A stretch of DNA of 38,655 nt, taken from positions 1 through 38,655 of the IMG/VR virus record IMGVR_UViG_3300036985_005979. One strand, given 5' to 3'. The DNA comes from a virus. A program made the translations under genes and the position numbers. The notes under the pieces are model-generated. The model was not told the DNA's origin and did not search any database. It worked only from the letters and a program-made list of their open reading frames with translations. This document shows, piece after piece, positions 6,858 through 20,753 of this stretch (within the stretch, counting starts at the first letter, position 1; each line of letters opens with the position of its first letter).

Positions 6858-7023
6858 CTGACTGTCCTGCGAGTGCGGTGTTCAGCGCTACTTAACTGTG
6901 TCAACAGGCACATGCTTGCGTTAAGCGGGGCTTAATGTCCTTGTACAACTTCTTGGAGTACCGAGCGTAGAAAGACTATCGGATATGCTAACGGCACAAC
7001 GGTTTGCAACAGGAGATTCCACC
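6858..7023. promoter_or_regulatory. Divergent control region between terminase and capsid operons
   Basis: This 166-base gap must hold the start signals for two divergent units. On the minus strand a perfect TTGACA (plus coordinates 6899-6904) could be a -35 box for terminase, but I find no good -10. A TTAAG-N5-CTTAA inverted repeat lies at 6921-6935. No clear capsid promoter is visible. An AGGAG site at 7011-7015 serves the capsid start. Confidence 0.4.
6921..6935. promoter_or_regulatory. Inverted repeat TTAAG-N5-CTTAA
   Basis: The arms extend to 6 bp here (TTAAGC-GGG-GCTTAA). The same 5-bp arms and spacing occur at 200-214. Both copies lie in leaders of plus-strand units, so a shared regulatory role is possible. 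Confidence 0.4.
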
Positions 7024-8193
7024 ATGGGTGCGTATACTGGTAGCACGGCGATTGACGCCTTTATCGACGAAGTCAAGATTGGCATTGACGCCGTTGAGAA
7101 GACCGGCGTTGAGACCTGGCTCGACAAGAACCTTGTCCTCACCGACTTCATGACCAAGATCCGCTCGAAGAAGCCCATGGGTGCGCTCGGCTGGGCCGGC
7201 GACATCAAGAAGGCGACCTCGGGCGCCCGGTTCAAGCGCATCGTGACCGGTACGGAGGAGCTGGCCCCCGCGCCCAAGCTCACCCGCGCCGTGACGAAGC
7301 TCGGCATCAACCTCATTGAAGGCGCCTTTGTAATGGGCGACTTCCAGTGGGAGCTGATCGAGATTGAGAACAGCCCGATTCAGGCTGCCAAGTCCTTCGT
7401 GAGCGATGTCATCATTGAGACGCAGAAGGCGTATGCGTACACGATGGAGAGCTACATGCTCATCGGCGCTCTGCCGGGCGAGCAGGCCGCCGTCTTTGAC
7501 GATGTGGCTGAGCTGTATGGTATGAACAGCCTGTGCGGCGCCGTGAACGCTGGTGGTCTGGTTGACGGCGTCAACTACGGCTTCATCGAGTTCCTTACCC
7601 CGACTGCTCAGACTTCCGCGGGCCATCTCACGATGGGTCTTGCCCGCGATCAGGCGATTGGCCACTACAACCAGTTCAAGCTGTGCGGCGCTTCCGGTCT
7701 TGCCGAGACTGACGCGCTTACCTCCGGCAAGAACCTGCTTGGTACTATCATCCGCGAGATCAACCGCGCGAATGGTGGGATCTCCAATCTCCGGTTCATC
7801 GCGGACGTTGACACGTACGCGTACGCCGAGTCCCAGCAGAACACCCGCGTTGTTCCCATTGTGGTTGGCGTGCCCGTCGGTGAGGACCTTACCGAGTGGG
7901 ACTCCACCGTTGAGTACATGAAGGGCGTGCGGATTCAGGCGTCCCAGGTGCTTGACCGCACCGCGGCGACCCTGGCCGGCACCGATGCCGAAGACGGCTT
8001 GATCTACTGTCTGTCACCCAACCGTATGTTCCGTCTGGAGCACAACGGCGGTCTTCAGGCCATGGGTCGCGCCCTTGAGCACATCGACGGGCTGTCCACC
8101 TCGCGGGCCATGCGTTGGCGCCACAACGTCAACTTCGGCTGCGAAGACCTCCGTACCCTCGGCGTTCTCTGCGGAACCGCGCTCACCGCCTGA
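7024..8193 (+). CDS. Major capsid protein
   Basis: A 389-residue protein that is the best candidate for the main shell subunit. The start at ATG 7024 is chosen because AGGAG lies 8 bases upstream; an upstream in-frame ATG at 6985 lacks such a site. The sequence has a helical N-terminus (DEVKIGIDAVEKTGVETW), then mixed alpha/beta with many Gly/Ala, and a long helix around AAKSFVSDVIIETQKAYAY that fits an HK97-type spine helix. Codon use is clean and strongly GC-ended, as expected of a highly expressed gene. It starts a two-gene operon closed by a terminator. The call rests on size, composition, expression signals and position beside terminase, portal and scaffold. HK97 fold is inferred. Confidence 0.78.
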   Translation: MGAYTGSTAIDAFIDEVKIGIDAVEKTGVETWLDKNLVLTDFMTKIRSKKPMGALGWAGDIKKATSGARFKRIVTGTEELAPAPKLTRAVTKLGINLIEGAFVMGDFQWELIEIENSPIQAAKSFVSDVIIETQKAYAYTMESYMLIGALPGEQAAVFDDVAELYGMNSLCGAVNAGGLVDGVNYGFIEFLTPTAQTSAGHLTMGLARDQAIGHYNQFKLCGASGLAETDALTSGKNLLGTIIREINRANGGISNLRFIADVDTYAYAESQQNTRVVPIVVGVPVGEDLTEWDSTVEYMKGVRIQASQVLDRTAATLAGTDAEDGLIYCLSPNRMFRLEHNGGLQAMGRALEHIDGLSTSRAMRWRHNVNFGCEDLRTLGVLCGTALTA

Positions 8194-8976: not shown

Positions 8977-11900
8977 CTACGAACATCCACTCGTGCCGCC
9001 GCAGTTCGTACAACGATAGCACGAGCCGGAGCGAACCATCATCGAGCCACACGAAGTACAGAACGGGGCATCGGACACGAGGGGCTTGACCGCAATGTCG
9101 CGAATGAAGCCCTGCGAAAGTACAGTGGGCGCAGGATTGCTGACTGCCACCGCCACCACTTTCCTACTTGCACCGAATCGCAGGTCGAGCCAGCGGAAGA
9201 TGTAGTCAATCAGACTGCTGGCGAATCCCAGCTCAGCCGAGCCAGTGAACCCCGACGGCTCGAACCTGGTGTGAGAGAACTTCGACACCAGCGTCTCCAG
9301 AGGCACGCCGTACTGAAGGCCGAGGCTGGCGGACGTAGCGAAGGCATCCATCAGGCCAGAGATGGTGGAGCCCTCTTTCGCCATCACGAGGAAGATTTCA
9401 CCAGGAGTGCCATCTTCATGCAGACCGACAGTGATGTAGCCTTCGTGCCCGCCAATATCGAACTTGTGGGTAAGCGACTGTCGTTCGACGGGGAGCCGCC
9501 GACGGTGGGGTTGTATATTTTGTAGTCCGCGCTCGGGGGCAGACTGATGGTTGGTGTCAGGCAAAACATCGGCAGTCTCCTTCGCCTTGTCTTCCTTCTT
9601 GGTGTTCAGCGGTTGGCTCATCTTGCAGCCATCGCGGTATACAGCGATCGACTTGAGACCGAGCTTCCACGCCTGGACGTAGAGTGCCTTGATATCTTCC
9701 ACCGTGTAATGATTAGGAACATTACAGGTGTTGTGGTTCACAATACCATTGCCGACGAAAGTTTCGGTCGCAGGTACAGAGATATCAAACACTTCTGCTT
9801 CTTCGGCTTCTTCACACTTCACCACCTGAATGTAGTCGAATACCCACTCATCCTCACTAAATGAAAGATCCATTGCTTCGGCAACTTTCATCGCCGTATC
9901 GCGCCGAATGTACTTTGTACGAGGATCGAAGATACCACGATATTCCCATGCCTTTGCTTTGGTTACGGCTTCCATCATCGCAGCTCGGTGCATGGGGAAT
10001 CGCCGCGTGTCTGCCGTGGCCTTCTGCACTTTTGCACGTTCTCGCTTGTGCTCCTCCAACCACTGAAGCGTATCCGCGGCGATCTTTCTGTCACATCCGA
10101 GAATGTGCAGCACAGGATAGTTTACGTCGTTTACTACATTGTCATTGAAATAAGTGCCGATGCCGAGATTATCAAACATGATCTGTACATCACGCAGCAG
10201 CGATTGATGCTTCTGACCGATTGCGATGTCCCCGATTTTCGAGATCCATCCATCCAAGAACAACCCAGAGATATAAGCTACACACTCTTTTCGGCTGCCC
10301 GACAGAACACACGAGGGCACATGTTCCTTCGAGAATTCGATTCCTTTAAGCCATTCTACGATGGTCTTGGAACTGAAGTGCACCCCGAGTACACCATTTC
10401 GTGCATCTTCGGTGTACTTACAGGTAATCCCGAACAGCTCAGTCGCAGCCTTTTCAAAGGCATTCAACACGGGAATGTTGTTCTTTGTAAGACCGACGGT
10501 GTACGTAGTTTTGGTAACATGACCATCGGCAGTAAGCATACCGAGAAACAGCGCGAGCTGCTCTGTCATATGTGTTGGAAGGTTTACCGCTTTTTGCGAA
10601 CCATGCGGGGCTGATATGGTGACGGCCGGAAGTTCAGCACCCTCCATCCCCCACATTTCAGTGCCACGATGGATAGCTACGAAGTCACCGATTTCCAGCT
10701 CTGGGATGCGCTTCCAGACGAGCCCGTCTTCCGTGGCTACACGAACACGGTGAACAGCAGTACCAGAAAGCAGATGCCCATCCGCCAGCTCGGCCCGCCA
10801 TACCTTCCGAGTTCCGCCATAGTAGAAGTGCGAAGCTCGCTGCGCTCCGTTGTATGAAGGCACGCTAAAGTCCACAGGAGTGAACTCATCCTCGTTTTCA
10901 CTGGTGTAAAGCGAACCGATACGCTTCATGCCGTTGGACGTTACGATAATCGTATCGCCCACAACACACTTGCTGATTGCGCCGCTAAGGAATGGTTGAA
11001 CAGCAGCCATCATCAGAATGTGCGCCTCTGGGGAGAGCACCCGCTGACCGCTCGCCGAGCGAAGGGCGCAGTCGAAGACCTCCAGATGCGCCTCGTCCAG
11101 CCCAGCGCCTTCGACATGCCCGTACTCCTCGACGTGCCGAACGATAGCGTCCACCAGGTCCGGCACGTAGCCGAGCGCCACCAGGGCCGCCCGCACGCCG
11201 TCATTAGCGAGACGAATGAACCCGCCGCCGACCAGGTTCTTGTAGGACACCAGCGCGATGTTCGGCTCAACACCAGTGGTTGAGCAATCCATCAACATCC
11301 CGATCGTACCAGTCGGCGCGAGCACAGTTACCTGGGAGTTACGAAACCCCTGCCTGTACCCCTCGGTGTAGCACAACTCCCACATGCGCTGAAGCTGCGC
11401 GGGCTGGTGAGCGTCCAGTGCCGCGTTCCAGTGCTTGGTGATGACGTGAAGCATCGCGTCCTTGTTCTTCGCGTAGCCGGCAAACGGTCCCTTCACCTGC
11501 GCCAGCTTGGCCGACATCGTATACGCCGCGCAGTGCATCGCCGATGTGATCTCCGCGGCCAGTTCGCGTCCCTTGTCGCTACCATACCCAAGCCCGTTCA
11601 CCATCAGCAGCGAGCCGAGATTCGCGTACCCGAGCCCGAGCGGCCGGAAGTCACGCGACATCTGCTTGAACTTCTCAGTCGGGTAATCGGCGCGGTCAAC
11701 AAGGATGTCCTGTGCAATAATGATGAGCTGGCAGGCAGCGGCGAACCGCGTGTAATCGAATCCCTGAATGCCCCGCGGGTGGAACTTCATCAGGTTAAGA
11801 CTGGCGAGGTTACACGCCGTATCGTCAAGGAAATTGAACTCACCGCAGGGATTTACAGTGTTAATACGTCCACTTTCTGGGCAAGTGTGGAAATCGTTGA

Positions 11901-12909
11901 TAGTAGTGTCGAACATAAGCCCGGGGTCACCACAGAACCACGCCGCCTCGGCCATCTGCTCCAGCAGCAGGAGCGGGTTGACAGTCTTGCAGACATTTCC
12001 GGTGGTACGCTCGATCAAATCCCAGCTACCGCCGATACTCTGTGCAGCCTGCATGAACTCGTCAGGTACACGGATACTATGGTTGGCGTTCTGGAAGGCA
12101 ACCGTCGAGTAGGCGCCGTTTTTCGCATTGAAGGCACCGCTATACCCCGCAGCAATCAGAGCATGCGCCTTCTTCTCCTCGACTACCTTGCATGAGATGA
12201 ATTCTTCGATATCCGGATGGTCAACATTCAGTTGAACCATTTTGGCCGCGCGCCTCGTGGCGCCCCCTGATTGAACTACGCCTGCGAATGCGTCATATCC
12301 ACGCAGGAACGAGATGGGACCACTCGCCGTTCCACCACCAGAAAGCTTCTCGTGCGCACCCCGGAGCTTGGACAGGTTTACACCCGCGCCGGAGCCGCCC
12401 TTAAACAACCGAGCTTCGGTGGCGGCCAGCTCCATGATAGATTCCATGGTGTCATCGACGCTGTTCAGGAAACATGCACTCGCCTGATTCGTCTTCCCGG
12501 CGCCGATGTTGAACCACACTGGCGAGTTAAACGCGAAGCACTGGTGGAGCAACAGCCACACCATGTCACAATAGAAGGCTTGGCTATCTGCGGGGGTAGC
12601 AAAGTATCCATCCTCCATCCCCCAGATTGCAATTGTATTGGCTACCCGATCAACCATTTGACGAATAGAATACTCCCTACCATCTTCGCCGATGTGACCC
12701 CGGAAGTATTTGCTCGCGGCGATGTTGACCGCAGTGTCGGACCAATCGGCCGGCGCCAGAACCCCGAGCTGCTGGAAGACGATGCCGCCCTTCGAGTCGG
12801 AGATGGTGCAGTCGCGCGTTCCCCACTCCACGGTGCTCCAGGGGTCAATGCCCTCGGGACAGAACTTGCGAACCCAGGGCAGGCCATTGTGCTTATCAGC
12901 GACGGACAT
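8977..12909 (-). CDS. nrdJ: Adenosylcobalamin-dependent (class II) ribonucleotide reductase with intein
   Basis: A 1310-residue precursor; removing the 413-residue intein leaves an 897-residue enzyme. Class II reductases turn ribonucleotides into deoxyribonucleotides using vitamin B12 coenzyme, supplying dNTP precursors for phage DNA. Visible hallmarks are FNSPVWFNIG near residue 127, Cys146 (ASACF), the NPCGE motif with radical-forming Cys355 and Glu357, Cys366 of the redox pair (DDTACNLASLNL), and LAPTGTIG further on. After the intein come TVEDI and WKLGLKSIAVYRDG, and a C-terminal Cys-rich tail of about 27 residues (CTSCG...CYRCTNCG...SGCS) typical of NrdJ. ATG 12909 has GGAG 6 bases upstream. 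It overlaps the dNMP kinase gene by 14 bases and ends the nucleotide-metabolism operon. Confidence 0.96.
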   Translation of the reverse strand: MSVADKHNGLPWVRKFCPEGIDPWSTVEWGTRDCTISDSKGGIVFQQLGVLAPADWSDTAVNIAASKYFRGHIGEDGREYSIRQMVDRVANTIAIWGMEDGYFATPADSQAFYCDMVWLLLHQCFAFNSPVWFNIGAGKTNQASACFLNSVDDTMESIMELAATEARLFKGGSGAGVNLSKLRGAHEKLSGGGTASGPISFLRGYDAFAGVVQSGGATRRAAKMVQLNVDHPDIEEFISCKVVEEKKAHALIAAGYSGAFNAKNGAYSTVAFQNANHSIRVPDEFMQAAQSIGGSWDLIERTTGNVCKTVNPLLLLEQMAEAAWFCGDPGLMFDTTINDFHTCPESGRINTVNPCGEFNFLDDTACNLASLNLMKFHPRGIQGFDYTRFAAACQLIIIAQDILVDRADYPTEKFKQMSRDFRPLGLGYANLGSLLMVNGLGYGSDKGRELAAEITSAMHCAAYTMSAKLAQVKGPFAGYAKNKDAMLHVITKHWNAALDAHQPAQLQRMWELCYTEGYRQGFRNSQVTVLAPTGTIGMLMDCSTTGVEPNIALVSYKNLVGGGFIRLANDGVRAALVALGYVPDLVDAIVRHVEEYGHVEGAGLDEAHLEVFDCALRSASGQRVLSPEAHILMMAAVQPFLSGAISKCVVGDTIIVTSNGMKRIGSLYTSENEDEFTPVDFSVPSYNGAQRASHFYYGGTRKVWRAELADGHLLSGTAVHRVRVATEDGLVWKRIPELEIGDFVAIHRGTEMWGMEGAELPAVTISAPHGSQKAVNLPTHMTEQLALFLGMLTADGHVTKTTYTVGLTKNNIPVLNAFEKAATELFGITCKYTEDARNGVLGVHFSSKTIVEWLKGIEFSKEHVPSCVLSGSRKECVAYISGLFLDGWISKIGDIAIGQKHQSLLRDVQIMFDNLGIGTYFNDNVVNDVNYPVLHILGCDRKIAADTLQWLEEHKRERAKVQKATADTRRFPMHRAAMMEAVTKAKAWEYRGIFDPRTKYIRRDTAMKVAEAMDLSFSEDEWVFDYIQVVKCEEAEEAEVFDISVPATETFVGNGIVNHNTCNVPNHYTVEDIKALYVQAWKLGLKSIAVYRDGCKMSQPLNTKKEDKAKETADVLPDTNHQSAPERGLQNIQPHRRRLPVERQSLTHKFDIGGHEGYITVGLHEDGTPGEIFLVMAKEGSTISGLMDAFATSASLGLQYGVPLETLVSKFSHTRFEPSGFTGSAELGFASSLIDYIFRWLDLRFGASRKVVAVAVSNPAPTVLSQGFIRDIAVKPLVSDAPFCTSCGSMMVRSGSCYRCTNCGGTSGCS
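9730..10968 (-). mobile_element. Intein with LAGLIDADG homing endonuclease in NrdJ
   Basis: Residues 648-1060 of the NrdJ precursor. The first residue is Cys648 (CVVGDTIIVT), a TxxH block B motif lies at 717-720 (GTAVHRVRV), and the C-terminus ends VGNGIVNHN with splice residues His-Asn; the first C-extein residue is Thr. Two LAGLIDADG-type helices are visible at about 787-796 (LFLGMLTADG) and 879-887 (YISGLFLDG), so an intact homing endonuclease is likely. The insertion point is in the conserved SGAISK/T stretch of NrdJ, where removal restores SGAISKTCNVPN. The DNA of this part looks richer in A and T than the flanking exteins, in keeping with later acquisition. Catalytic Asp residues of both helices appear present. 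Confidence 0.95.
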
Positions 12910-16225: not shown

Positions 16226-18823
16226 TCACGCGCGCCGAAATGGGTACACAAAGTTACGCCCACTCGGCGTTTGTACTTTCTTGTCTGTCAGGCCCGGCCA
16301 CCCGAGAGCTTTCACCGCGGCACTCAATAGTTGAGACCAGCCGGTCGAGAAGATACCTTTGTGTCCGGACTTGCGCATCGTCTCGTTGTAGTGCTCCTCG
16401 ATATTACGAGAAGACACGCCGATGCTCGCGGGGGCACCAATGGACGAGGCGCCTGTAATTTTGTCCTCCTCAGCGATAACTGCGTAGTTCTGCTGAAGAA
16501 ACATCGCGATCGGATTCGCCTCGATTTCCCACGAGCCAACGACGCTGGCGCTGGACTTCGGCACATCGTAAGTATCACCAATGCCGAATGAGCACTCCAG
16601 CGCCAAGCAGATGAGCGCGTGAATCTCGGGGAGCATCTTGCTCTCCAGCTTGGTGTCTACCTCGTGGTCAAGCAGCACGTTCTCGCACTTGAGCGCGATG
16701 AAGCGCCGCCACCAGCCGGAATCGCCGCGACGAACCGGCGGCATTGCGTTGCACGCATAGACGTGGGCGGCAGTCAGGTGATGCACCGAACCCTGAATGC
16801 CTTTCGTCTCAATCGTCATCGGCTCGCCGCAGACCGCCGACTTGAATCGCGCCGTCTCCATGATCATGTCTGACGCCATGTCGAATACCATGTTCAGTCG
16901 CTTGCCAATCAGCGAACCGGCGCCGAATCGCGACTCCATTTCTTGAATCGAGACGCCGCTGACCGAATCCGGCGGGAAGCACAGGCGGAACAACTGAAGG
17001 ATACTCGACTTTCCGGAGCGACCTGGCCCGACCAGGAGCAGCGCCTTCTGGTACTTTATCGTTTTACCCAATAGTGCTGCACCAAGATACTGAAGAAAGA
17101 AGTGGATGTTCCCCCGTGTGTCAATGTCATTCTTCCACAGTCGGTGTAGCACGCGCGAGACGACCGGACACGAATTCGCCAACGCCCCGACGAAGTCACC
17201 GTCCTCAACTTCAGGGCGCGTGTAGTCGAAGTCCATATAATGCCCGGCCAGCACGCCGTTACGCTGGTGGTTCTCAGTAAGCCCGTCCTCCGGTGCCGCA
17301 GCAGATAGGAACCCATTGCGAAATGACAGGCCAATGTGGCGCTGCTCCCGCAGATCGCCATTCTGACGCTTCATGCAGTAGCGAACGATGCACTGTAGAA
17401 CGCCCTGCTCCTTCTGCGCGCTGAATCGGTAGCGACACCACTTGGCCTCATCATTCTTGTTGACCTTGAGGTAGCGATACTTGCGCAGTTCATCGAACGC
17501 CGGCATCACGAGTGCCAGGGTCGCCTTCGCCTGTCCGCGGGTCACCCAGAACTGCCCGTTGTACAAATAGAAGCTCTTGTCCATCACTGAGTAGCCAAGC
17601 TTACCATCAAGAATGTTCTCGACAATCAGCTCGGCCAGCTCCGCGTCGTCATACTCGTACTTGTGCTTGTACTGTTCCTCGGGTTCTTCACTCTCTTCCT
17701 CTTCTTCCACTTCTTTGCGCGCCTTCTCTGCATCAGCATTCAGGCGGTCGCAGAACTGCGCTACCTTTTCTTCGCCACAATGGTCCAGGTAGGCGGCGAC
17801 GGAAAGAATCTCGGGCTTCTGACACTGCTTATGGAAACAATGAAAGCTCCACCAGCCGGAGTCCTTCTCGCTGACGATGCAATCCTTATCCTTCGCGACA
17901 CCATGCTTGGAAGCGTCCAAACATTCGACATAGTGCTGGCGCTCGTCCTTCTGATTGATGTAAAGATCGCACTCAGTCAGCAGCTCGACCCACTTCATGG
18001 TAGATAGCGCATACTTGCCAGTGAACCATGCGGGAAGATTCTTCCATTCCTTGCCCTGGTGCAGCTTGTCGATGGACGACTCTGCCTTGAGCCCCGCCGG
18101 GCGCCCCATTGTCGGCTTGAAGTGCGTAAAGAAGTCATCAACCGAAACACGAGCAGCGGGGTCCTCGGCCACCAAGCGAACCAGTTTCAGCTCGCCTGTG
18201 TGTCCGTCCATTACGCCCTTACGATTGAAGGCGCCCGGCATGCGTACATAGCGATTGACATTACAGCAAGCGTCGTCAGCCAGGTTGAAGCCGGCAGCAT
18301 CATTGATAGTTTTGATGAGCCGCTTCATACAGCCTTCGTACTTGCTCTTAATCTTCTCACCATCATCGCCGGAAACATTCACCGGGACATCGAACCAGTA
18401 GTGGAAGTGGTAACCGTACCCCGTAGCAACAACCGCGCGCGCCTTGAACTCCGGGGCGCTTTTGCTGATACTCCGCCGAATCAATTCCAGATGCTCATTG
18501 TAGGTCTGCGATGAGATATACCAGGTACCATTCAGCAGGGAGTTCTTGTGTTCCTTACGCATGTCATCGTTCCATTTCGCCATCCCATCAACCATGTAGT
18601 CAATGATGTCGAAGTCAAGAAAGAACCCAACCAGGTGACTGACGGCCGCTTTCGACGCCTGCTTTGCATCTTCGCGGACCAGGTTGAATGTCTCGAAGTC
18701 GCCCGCCAGCCCAGCGCCCGGAAAGTCGTTCGGGTTGCGCAGGTACACCGCGCCTGGAAGTGTTGGCGGGTGCGGGGCAACTACTACGGGAGCTTGACGT
18801 TGTTCAACGGAGAGGCTATCCAT
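16226..18823 (-). CDS. Primase-helicase (archaeo-eukaryotic-type primase fused to SF3 helicase)
   Basis: An 865-residue replication protein. The N-terminal domain shows primase motifs: FFLDFDIID with Asp70/Asp72, GYGYHFHYWFD with His139/His141, and NVNRYVRMPGAFNRK (Arg191, Arg194), as in archaeo-eukaryotic primases. A Cys/His patch (WWSFHCFHKQC) lies near residue 330 and may bind zinc. A Glu-rich linker (EEEEESEEPEEQ) follows. The C-terminal half is an SF3/D5-type helicase: Walker A GPGRSGKSS with Lys605, a Walker B-like LNMVFDMASD, sensor strand HVYACNAMPP and arginine-finger motif SGWWRRFIAL. Such enzymes melt the origin and prime replication. It follows the RHH gene and repeat-rich region, supporting an origin nearby. 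AGGA precedes ATG 18823. Confidence 0.93.
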   Translation of the reverse strand: MDSLSVEQRQAPVVVAPHPPTLPGAVYLRNPNDFPGAGLAGDFETFNLVREDAKQASKAAVSHLVGFFLDFDIIDYMVDGMAKWNDDMRKEHKNSLLNGTWYISSQTYNEHLELIRRSISKSAPEFKARAVVATGYGYHFHYWFDVPVNVSGDDGEKIKSKYEGCMKRLIKTINDAAGFNLADDACCNVNRYVRMPGAFNRKGVMDGHTGELKLVRLVAEDPAARVSVDDFFTHFKPTMGRPAGLKAESSIDKLHQGKEWKNLPAWFTGKYALSTMKWVELLTECDLYINQKDERQHYVECLDASKHGVAKDKDCIVSEKDSGWWSFHCFHKQCQKPEILSVAAYLDHCGEEKVAQFCDRLNADAEKARKEVEEEEESEEPEEQYKHKYEYDDAELAELIVENILDGKLGYSVMDKSFYLYNGQFWVTRGQAKATLALVMPAFDELRKYRYLKVNKNDEAKWCRYRFSAQKEQGVLQCIVRYCMKRQNGDLREQRHIGLSFRNGFLSAAAPEDGLTENHQRNGVLAGHYMDFDYTRPEVEDGDFVGALANSCPVVSRVLHRLWKNDIDTRGNIHFFLQYLGAALLGKTIKYQKALLLVGPGRSGKSSILQLFRLCFPPDSVSGVSIQEMESRFGAGSLIGKRLNMVFDMASDMIMETARFKSAVCGEPMTIETKGIQGSVHHLTAAHVYACNAMPPVRRGDSGWWRRFIALKCENVLLDHEVDTKLESKMLPEIHALICLALECSFGIGDTYDVPKSSASVVGSWEIEANPIAMFLQQNYAVIAEEDKITGASSIGAPASIGVSSRNIEEHYNETMRKSGHKGIFSTGWSQLLSAAVKALGWPGLTDKKVQTPSGRNFVYPFRRA

Positions 18824-18916: not shown

Positions 18917-18948
18917 GAGGTCGGTAGGGGTAACAACCTACCGACCTC
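18917..18948. terminator. Strong 12-bp hairpin between RHH and primase-helicase genes
   Basis: A perfect 12-bp stem GAGGTCGGTAGG / CCTACCGACCTC (18917-18928 with 18937-18948) has an 8-base loop. On the plus strand it is followed by TTTCATTT, so its terminator polarity favours rightward transcription, where no gene is obvious upstream. On the minus strand it lies between the RHH and primase genes without a T-run, so it could act as an attenuator or protein-binding site. Confidence 0.7.
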
Positions 18949-18995: not shown

Positions 18996-19238
18996 TTACC
19001 CAACACCACCAACTACCTCGCCCTCCCCGGTGCCGCTCTCCGTGTCAAACCGCGCGATGTACTCTGCAATGGCTTCTCGCAGTACATCCGAGCGTAGGGT
19101 TGCGCGGCCGGTCTGCCGCATCTTGGCGCTGGCAATCTCACCAAGTCGGTCGTAAATCTCGGGCGTGACGTTCGTTGCAACCGGCTTGGTCCAGCCGTTG
19201 TGCTGCTTCTTCTCACTGTCGGGCTTCTTGGGGGTCAT
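18996..19238 (-). CDS. Ribbon-helix-helix DNA-binding protein
   Basis: An 80-residue basic protein with the CopG/Arc-type pattern: a short strand (KPVATNVTPEIYDRL) and two helices (DRLGEIASAKMRQTG and RSDVLREAIAEYIARF), residues about 18-65. Proteins of this family dimerise and bind short repeated operators with the beta strand, often as repressors, plasmid copy-control or partition proteins. GGAG lies 9 bases before ATG 19238. It sits between the repeat-rich region and the primase-helicase, so the TCAGGACA sites are candidate binding sites; this is inference. The last 15 residues are Gly/Val-rich and probably disordered. Confidence 0.82.
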   Translation of the reverse strand: MTPKKPDSEKKQHNGWTKPVATNVTPEIYDRLGEIASAKMRQTGRATLRSDVLREAIAEYIARFDTESGTGEGEVVGGVG

Positions 19239-19439
19239 GGGAGTTCTCCATCAATGGGTGGTGCGGAACCCGGTGGCCCGCGGCGGGGCGGCTCAAGCTT
19301 GCCCACCTCTTGTACCCCACGAGCCTTGGGGCGGCAAGGTGGCGGGGCGAGAAAGTTGACCTCCTCTACGATGTCGATGGCGCCTACAGGACAGCGGAAG
19401 AAGAGGAACAACCTATGTTTTTCGTAGGGCTGTTTAGGG

Positions 19440-19464
19440 TCAGGACACGCGAAAGGGCAGGTAC
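19440..19464 (+). repeat. 25-bp iteron-like repeat, copy 1
   Basis: Fits TCAGGACA-N2-CGAAA-N3-CAGG-K-AC. This copy has T at the K position (GTAC). It is extended from the octamer and shared with copies at 19708 and 20001. Confidence 0.8.
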
Positions 19465-19521
19465 TTCCAGGGTTATTCCCATTTGTCCGGAGTCTGCACT
19501 CCCCACATCCTTTCTCTATAC

Positions 19522-19602
19522 AGAGTGTCGGATAGAAGTCTCAGCGGATAAAAGTCTCCCCTTCTGGACTTCTATACTTCTATACTTCTTTCCGGACACT
19601 CT
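19522..19602. repeat. Nested inverted repeat with AT-rich 8-bp tandem
   Basis: The outer arms AGAGTGTC (19522-19529) and GACACTCT (19595-19602) and the inner arms ATAGAAGTC (19532-19540) and GACTTCTAT (19567-19575) are all perfect. The right side contains ACTTCTAT, ACTTCTAT and ACTTCTTT in tandem (19568-19591). This is the most AT-rich part of the region and could be a melting element or cruciform. Confidence 0.8.
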
Positions 19603-19707
19603 ATGTAAAACCACTACACTTTCACAGGACAGTCAGGACAGTAAGGAAAAGAGAAGGGAGAACCAGGGGAAAACATGTCCTGACTACCCAGGACAGCCAC
19701 TTTCGAG

Positions 19708-19732
19708 TCAGGACAGCCGAAAGCGCAGGGAC
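19708..19732 (+). repeat. 25-bp iteron-like repeat, copy 2
   Basis: Fits TCAGGACA-N2-CGAAA-N3-CAGG-K-AC, here with GGAC followed by AAC as in copy 3. Confidence 0.85.
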
Positions 19733-19779
19733 AACCGGGACTAATCAAAAAAACCACCTGTCCTGACTCCCCGGCACAA

Positions 19780-19993
19780 AAGTCTCCAAGCCACGGAAAA
19801 GTCCCCGAGCGCCACCCTGCGAGGCCACGAAAACCTTGCCGGACTTTCATCCAACCCTTGACGTGTCAACATCATGCCCCCCAACCAATCGAAATAGATG
19901 ACGTTCGCTCGTGGGGAAAGTCCGGGAAGAGGGGCTTCGGACATCCCAAAATAAGTCTCCAAGCCCTCCTCCGGATTAAAGTTCCAGAGCGCC
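19780..19993 (+). repeat. Duplicated two-part block
   Basis: AAGTCTCCAAGCC occurs at 19780-19792 and 19953-19965. Each is followed by a second shared word: AAAGTCCCCGAGCGCC at 19798-19813 and AAAGTTCCAGAGCGCC at 19978-19993 (14 of 16 identical). The gap between the two words differs (5 and 12 bases), so the words rather than the whole block are conserved. Confidence 0.85.
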
Positions 19994-20000
19994 TGCGGAC

Positions 20001-20025
20001 TCAGGACAGGCGAAACCCCAGGGAC
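20001..20025 (+). repeat. 25-bp iteron-like repeat, copy 3
   Basis: Fits TCAGGACA-N2-CGAAA-N3-CAGG-K-AC and continues AAC like copy 2. A reverse TGTCCTGA follows 16 bases later at 20041, making a spaced dyad. Confidence 0.85.
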
Positions 20026-20289
20026 AACGCGCACTATCGCTGTCCTGAGCGGTCAGCGAGAGCAGGAGGAGCTGGGGTTGGCCTTGGGTCCGGTCCAGGC
20101 GGCGCGGCCCCTCCATCTCGCACGCCGCCACGAAGAAGGGAGGCGGGCCGCTCCATCGTGAGCCAGCCGCGCCTCCCTGGTGTGTCCTCGCCGCGCTGTC
20201 GGCCCGGAGTCCCGTGGCGCCCGGTTTTTAACTCGGGAACCTGGGGTCGCGGGCATCTCGGTCCAGCTCGTGGGGCCCCTGCGCCGCCC

Positions 20290-20753
20290 CTACCGCCCGA
20301 GCAGAGAGAGCACGATGTACGCCGCAAACCCGATGTTGAGGAGGTGGTGTACGAACTGGTCGAAGCCGAGCGCCACCCAAAACAGCTTCTTGTCGGCGCT
20401 CCATCGCCCACCCAGCAGCTTGTGGGCCTTCATCCGGTCAACGATGCAGTGGAGCCCCATGTCAGCAGCGAAGAGCTGGAGGTCCACGAAGCCGTCGTCC
20501 TCTACTTCGAGCACGGCGCACAGCACCCGCACAATGAGGAACGTGCCCAGTCCGTGCGTCCAGCAATGTTTCAGGAGGGGGCGGCCCAGACGAGGAAGTC
20601 ATCGGAGCCCTTCTTTGGGGCGTCTGCGTGAATCTGGAACACATAGTCGCAGAGGAAGTGCTTGAGCTGGAATGCAATCATCAAGGAGATGAACACGAGG
20701 AGTTCGCTGTTCTGGTTGAACAGCGTAAGCATGGGGGCATCTTGGAAAATCAT
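20290..20753 (-). CDS. DUF3307-family membrane protein, reading frame interrupted
   Basis: Two adjacent minus-strand frames together make one DUF3307-like protein of about 154 residues. The first (20753 to 20571) holds the start MIFQDAP and helix IAFQLKHFLCDYVFQ; the second (readable from about 20590 to 20290) continues LLKHCWTHGLGTFLIV, HCIVDRMKAHKL and the FDQFVHHLL helix. The family normally has these elements in one chain with three or four membrane helices. The frames differ by -1, and a run of five C (minus strand; 20577-20581) lies just before the first stop. One added C there would join them. This may be a sequencing or assembly indel, a natural mutation or programmed slippage. An AGGG site precedes ATG 20753, and the HTH gene ends 5 bases upstream. 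The biochemical function of DUF3307 is not known to me. Confidence 0.72.

Follow-up and report, generated by a model that had tools for sequence, protein, structure and literature searches.

The alpha protein of phage P4 binds the repeats of the P4 ori through a winged helix (PMC4234260), and SaPI Rep and SCCmec Cch2 are D5-type helicases that bind iterons and load there (PMC7581432). The origin required by pRN1 is a stem-loop of approximately 100 nt, the sequence of which is poorly conserved although its flanks are conserved (PMC4234260). In phage NrS-1, each strand has one copy of an 8-nt word close to the middle of the genome (PMC7102993). Origins with iterons, as in P4 and the phage-inducible islands, have usually been described separately from the pRN1 replicon with its RHH gene and stem-loop, and the locus analyzed here appears to join the two designs.

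The window in this study is the whole virus record of an uncultured phage (38,655 bp). Three protein or profile queries against viral contigs yielded one relative, L001 (record G001; 37,512 bp), of which the primase is 70% identical, and no DNA similar to the window was found in phage records. A gap of approximately 1 kb separates an RHH gene from a leftward membrane-protein gene (20290-20753, minus strand), and the original prediction took it for a candidate replication origin. Judging from the features below and from analogy with described systems, we regard this region as quite probably a replication origin, in which P4/satellite-type iterons would be bound by the primase-helicase of a pRN1-like operon.

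16226-18823, minus strand: P4-family primase-helicase of 865 aa, with an AEP N-terminal part, a helicase and a C-terminal candidate DNA-binding region
18917-18948: 12-bp hairpin between the RHH and primase genes, conserved bar one G-U pair
18996-19238, minus strand: ribbon-helix-helix (RHH) protein of 80 aa, ORF56-like
19330-19420: non-coding block to the left of the array, conserved at 91% vs L001
19386 (plus strand) and 19484: weaker outer sites, ACAGGACA and TGTCCGGA, respectively
19440-19464, plus strand: outer iteron within a 25-bp repeat
19507-19626: candidate DNA unwinding element, the 120-bp stretch of lowest stability in the nearest-neighbour profile of the record
19522-19601: long imperfect stem-loop within the unwinding element, including the tandem 8-mer at 19568-19589
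19617-19778: core iteron array, 81% identity to L001 with identical spacing
19624-19631, plus strand: iteron ACAGGACA, one mismatch, first of a 9-bp tandem pair, kept in L001
19633-19640, plus strand: iteron TCAGGACA, which completes the 9-bp tandem pair
19676-19683, minus strand: iteron TCAGGACA, inverted
19688-19695, plus strand: iteron CCAGGACA (TCAGGACA in L001)
19708-19715, plus strand: iteron TCAGGACA
19708-19732, plus strand: 25-bp repeat, middle copy, of which a copy is found in L001
19759-19766, minus strand: iteron TCAGGACA, inverted
20001-20025, plus strand: 25-bp repeat, third copy, window only
20001-20048: two outer iterons (20001, plus strand; 20041, minus strand), not kept in L001
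20085-20289: non-coding block to the right of the array, conserved at 90% vs L001 and containing a strong GC-rich hairpin

The octamer TCAGGACA occurs in seven exact copies (four forward and three reverse), starting at 19440, 19633, 19676, 19708, 19759, 20001, and 20041 and spanning 19440-20048. The number and the two orientations are as originally claimed, and the proposed count across the genome against shuffled sequence favored the cluster: not a single copy was found elsewhere in the 38,655-bp record, while the shuffled record is expected to contain 1.29 copies and contained three at maximum. With up to one mismatch, the gap holds 12 sites, whereas the density in the rest of the record predicts 0.75. 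The three 25-bp repeats at 19440, 19708, and 20001 match the predicted pattern, TCAGGACA-N2-CGAAA-N3-CAGG-K-AC, letter for letter, and the AT-rich tandem 8-mer (ACTTCTAT) is present at 19568-19589. The commonest word across the window and L001 was AGGACA, extended to (T)CAGGACA(G). No believable gene had been seen in the gap. Consistently, the substitutions between the window and L001 in the ORF at 19175-19744 were distributed over the three codon phases without bias (28, 29, and 26), and thus we regard the gap as non-coding. None of the Rfam families matched the window.

L001 possesses five exact copies of TCAGGACA, every one of which is in the matching gap. In the alignment of the two gaps, three conserved blocks were separated by unalignable stretches. 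The six sites of the core (19624-19766) are spaced by 9, 43, 12, 20, and 51 bp in both phages, and 47 of the 48 octamer bases are unchanged, compared with 79 of the 108 spacer bases (Fisher P 7e-5). When the site mask was shifted circularly (162 shifts), only the true register reached the observed conservation of the octamers. L001 lacks the outer sites found at 19440, 20001, and 20041 in the window, and in the left stretch, where the window has outer iterons, it bears four sites with one mismatch each; thus, the triple 25-bp repeat is specific to the lineage of the window phage. As the 25-bp unit is present only once in L001, the octamer is the conserved unit. The expectation that relatives share the array was therefore borne out for the six-site core, albeit not for the triple repeat. 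The array is known from two genomes only, the window phage and L001, and the octamer cluster is real and evolutionarily fixed.

The conserved block at 19330-19420 is probably the leader or promoter of the RHH operon, and the hairpin block at 20085-20289 is probably the terminator of the leftward gene at 20290-20753. The latter block is conserved above many genes and is perhaps more than a terminator. The membrane-protein gene itself is split by an apparent one-base deletion in the window and intact in L001.

Some features outside the gap were also observed in this comparison. The gene for class II ribonucleotide reductase (8977-12909, minus strand) contains an intein with LAGLIDADG domains at 9729-10950, while the insertion site is empty in L001. 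A protein of 402 aa (6985-8193, plus strand), encoded on the strand opposite to its neighbours, is 99% identical in L001 and found no match in 50,697 phage records; it is possibly the major capsid protein. The left contig end (1-109) comprises three copies of a 36-bp tandem repeat, and the contig of the relative (L166, 1-190) opens with degenerate related repeats containing TGACTGAC words. These repeats are perhaps close to a true genome end.

The weak segment at 19507-19626 touches the core array. Its counterpart in L001 (8884-9003) is the weakest 120 bp of the whole L001 record and occupies the same place beside the core. The result is strong but not scale-free, as the weakest DNA of the window was found elsewhere when the width was set to 100 bp or to 200 bp. 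The stem-loop at 19522-19601 has a z of -4.2, and that of L001 (9058-8988) a z of -4.0, none of the 200 shuffles being as strong in either case. Thus, a stem-loop is present in both phages although the sequences of the segments are unalignable. Genome-wide, the window stem-loop ranked approximately 9th among 1544 windows, and is strong rather than unique. No origin-like array or conserved stem-loop was detected downstream of the primase gene. GC skew, another proposed check, was uninformative: the cumulative minimum at 20,532 falls in the region but is broad, and the skew at third codon positions shows no switch. We dropped this minimum as evidence for the origin because it is explained by gene orientation.

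The D5-type primase-helicase predicted near the array turned out to be of the P4 family (D5/SF3). It matched TIGR01613 (phage/plasmid primase P4 family) with an E of 5.3e-30, the score of 104.3 bits being just below the cut-off of 108.7, and DUF5906 above the cut-off (E 9e-12), while the match to RepB_primase was weak (21.8 vs 24.3 bits). The motifs LDFD at 69, HFHYW at 139, and the P-loop GRSGKS at 601 were recognized. An AEP primase is thus fused to an SF3 helicase, as in pRN1-type proteins. Residues 410-833 were aligned with six P4-family primases including ORF904 of pRN1 (hhalign, 99.8%), and ORF904 shares 24.5% identity over 35% of the length. The nearest solved relative of the helicase is a DNA primase (PDB 7ola), and NrS-1 polymerase (PDB 6k9c) is related to the helicase part with an E of 0.002. 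The C-terminal 62 residues are 85% identical to those of L001, compared with 57-65% in the helicase core, as expected of a part reading an invariant site; approximately one-fifth of the windows along the protein are as conserved. No Pfam DNA-binding domain matched the C-terminal region, and the AlphaFold model of the primase had a pLDDT of 30.

To see whether arrays of this sort go with the primase family, we surveyed approximately 1,400 genomes of five classes by a TIGR01613 profile search, which gave 128 loci (L175-L302). Iterons were detected as a 7-mer repeated at 8-12 bp plus an inverted copy within 220 bp. The detector was positive for 61 of 122 downstream flanks and 8 of 95 upstream flanks (Fisher 1e-11), and for approximately 3.6 of the downstream flanks after shuffling. 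Spacing was 9 bp in 36 of the 61 positive downstream flanks, and the median distance of the arrays from the primase stop codon is 89 bp. The iteron words vary by locus, with GAC, ACA, and GTCA/TGAC enriched (computed without correction for flank orientation, which leaves the words unaffected). The arrays of the window and L001 pass the same detector with CAGGACA/AGGACAG at a spacing of 9. In Salinibacter pSR11, an RHH gene lies ahead of the primase gene, and TAACACAG pairs face each other across a hairpin. The original remark that so organised an array is rare in phage genomes is thus wrong for P4-family primases, about half of which, the survey suggests, have a recognizable iteron origin just downstream. 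In place, the array of the window runs counter to the origin model: it is upstream of the RHH-primase operon, unlike most surveyed arrays, which are directly downstream of the primase gene. The occurrence of the array in two genomes only, the uninformative GC skew, the scale dependence of the weak segment, and the absence of a Pfam hit in the C-terminal region also count against the model. The predicted origin is nevertheless supported by the conservation of the octamers, by the presence of weak DNA with a stem-loop in each of the two phages, and by the grammar common to the surveyed arrays. The survey makes the pairing of initiators and iterons accessible to study on a large scale, and it provides a simple means of locating origins in uncultured phages and satellites.

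Searching for the words themselves was less fruitful. In viral collections, 20 loci contained the 16-mer, which is about the chance level, and most of them were coding. Stretches with three words numbered 23 in viral sequences and more than 120 in genomes, mostly coding tandem repeats, against 3 for the reversed word, and a literature search for the octamer returned only primers. As the word searches were near chance or hit coding sequence, we do not take it as evidence that the word recurs in L004, which has a D5 primase, and in L008, of which the primase is BT4734-like. Both loci are nevertheless of note in their own right. The contig L008 (53-599, 4279-4813) contains a 4.2-kb element as a tandem dimer; the element encodes the BT4734-like primase and a resolvase and carries 12 TCAGGACA sites within 550 bp. 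In L004 (6302-6405), the 3' end of the D5 primase gene has three xTAGGACAG and three TCAGGACAG iterons, which face each other with an AT-rich palindromic segment between them and lie partly inside the coding sequence.

If the region works as an origin, the copies of TCAGGACA(G), above all those of the core at 19624-19766, would be double-stranded binding sites for the P4-family primase-helicase, bound probably via its C-terminal winged-helix-like region. This binding would load the SF3-type helicase, which may melt the adjacent weak segment (19507-19626) and extrude or stabilise the stem-loop. The AEP primase part would then lay primers, and copying would proceed bidirectionally. The ORF56-like RHH protein would most likely be the copy-control repressor of the operon. 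We propose the identity of the binding protein and the melting of the weak segment by analogy with SaPI, SCCmec, and P4, and bidirectional copying is likewise a proposal.

RHH repressors of the CopG or omega type coat operator arrays. The octamers may likewise be operator sites, at which the RHH protein coats the array and represses the RHH-primase operon. An ORF56-like RHH gene (18996-19238) does adjoin the region directly, as had been predicted, and it is conserved in L001, just upstream of the primase gene and in the same direction. The best NCBIfam match of the RHH protein is NF041793 (ORF56, plasmid copy control), with an E of 3e-5 and a score of 24 bits, below the cut-off of 50; it places the protein nearest to a family of plasmid copy-control repressors. 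The nearest PDB chain is 2k9i (ORF56 of pRN1), with a non-significant E of 0.33, and the structure model is moderate (pLDDT 61). L008, which bears a large TCAGGACA array, also has a small protein upstream of the primase, albeit one not recognized as RHH. On the other hand, the core is at a distance of approximately 390-530 bp from the start codon of the RHH gene, on its upstream side, rather than over the regulated promoter, and the irregular spacing and the two orientations of the sites count against operators. The predicted DNA-contacting strand changed from TKPVATNVT in the window to THQCAFNIT in L001 while the octamers are almost invariant, and the array shares its grammar with those beside P4-family primases generally. 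Thus, of the alternative raised originally, the adjacency of the RHH gene stands, but we regard the operator function as unlikely because the sites are far and irregular and the contact strand has changed while the sites have not.

The primer start of pRN1 uses a GTG motif. The octamer could similarly act chiefly in single-stranded form, as a template word on which the AEP part begins its primers, rather than as a duplex site. The relationship of the helicase part to NrS-1 polymerase, of which the word occurs once per strand (PMC7102993), is in line with this idea, and TGTCCTGA contains CCTG, within which certain PrimPols start (PMC8718748). However, a priming word would need neither fixed spacing nor six clustered copies, and 9-bp tandem iterons of varied words are found beside many primases of the family. 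We consider such a main function quite improbable, while a priming-template role could coexist with that of a duplex iteron. A partition (centromere-like) site, another alternative raised originally, would fit the clustered repeats beside a small RHH protein, as in ParG-type systems, but is exceedingly improbable, as partition requires neither the weak DNA nor the stem-loop, and no ParA/ParB match was found among the main ORFs scanned.

Returning to the origin, we compared the locus with the described systems one by one. The P4 ori is distant from the primase gene, and a 3' position of the origin is not required in P4. P4 resembles the window in having octamers in both orientations, a 9-bp tandem GTGAACAG pair in crr, and a P4-family helicase, and the words end in ACA(G) in both (GGTGAACAG in P4 and TCAGGACAG in the window). 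In contrast, P4 has no RHH gene beside alpha, its array is located differently, and DNA homology is absent. A 43-bp spacing common to the window and P4 crr/ori was discounted, as the polarity is opposite when the words are aligned on ACAG. The primases also differ in type, being TOPRIM in P4 alpha (PMC4234260) and AEP in the window.

SaPI/PICI Pri-Rep and SCCmec Cch2 share with the window iterons beside an AT-rich melting site and a D5-type helicase (PMC6092414, PMC7581432). The origins of PICI and SCCmec are directly 3' of the rep gene and comprise two facing sets of iterons, whereas the array of the window is 5' of the RHH-primase operon and its inverted sites alternate. The pRN1 plasmid of Sulfolobus (orf56/orf904) resembles the window in gene order, an ORF56-type RHH gene being followed by an AEP-helicase gene, with the likeness of the RHH protein judged from a match below the curated cut-off. 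A large stem-loop of poorly conserved sequence between conserved flanks is also common to both, but the pRN1 origin lacks iterons and is downstream of the operon, while the window has iterons and an upstream stem-loop. NrS-1 shares a DUF5906-type helicase relative, an 8-nt recognition word, and the position at the genome centre (PMC7102993, PMC8718748), but has two word copies only, which are read as a priming template, and no iteron array.

Altogether, the best supported comparison is that P4/PICI-like iterons are combined with a pRN1-like operon and stem-loop, placed upstream instead of downstream. This provides a concrete candidate origin for a phage lineage without close cultured relatives. 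More tentatively, the AEP-helicase replicons of the pRN1 kind and the P4-family satellites and phages might share one origin grammar, in which iterons spaced by 9 bp, with a variable head and a conserved core of the GAC/ACA type, sit next to a weak stem-loop segment, and this phage might be a transitional form. We regard this as possible, albeit doubtful. If it is true, a phage with both an ORF56-type operon and iterons identifies the kind of binding motif missing for ORF904 of pRN1.
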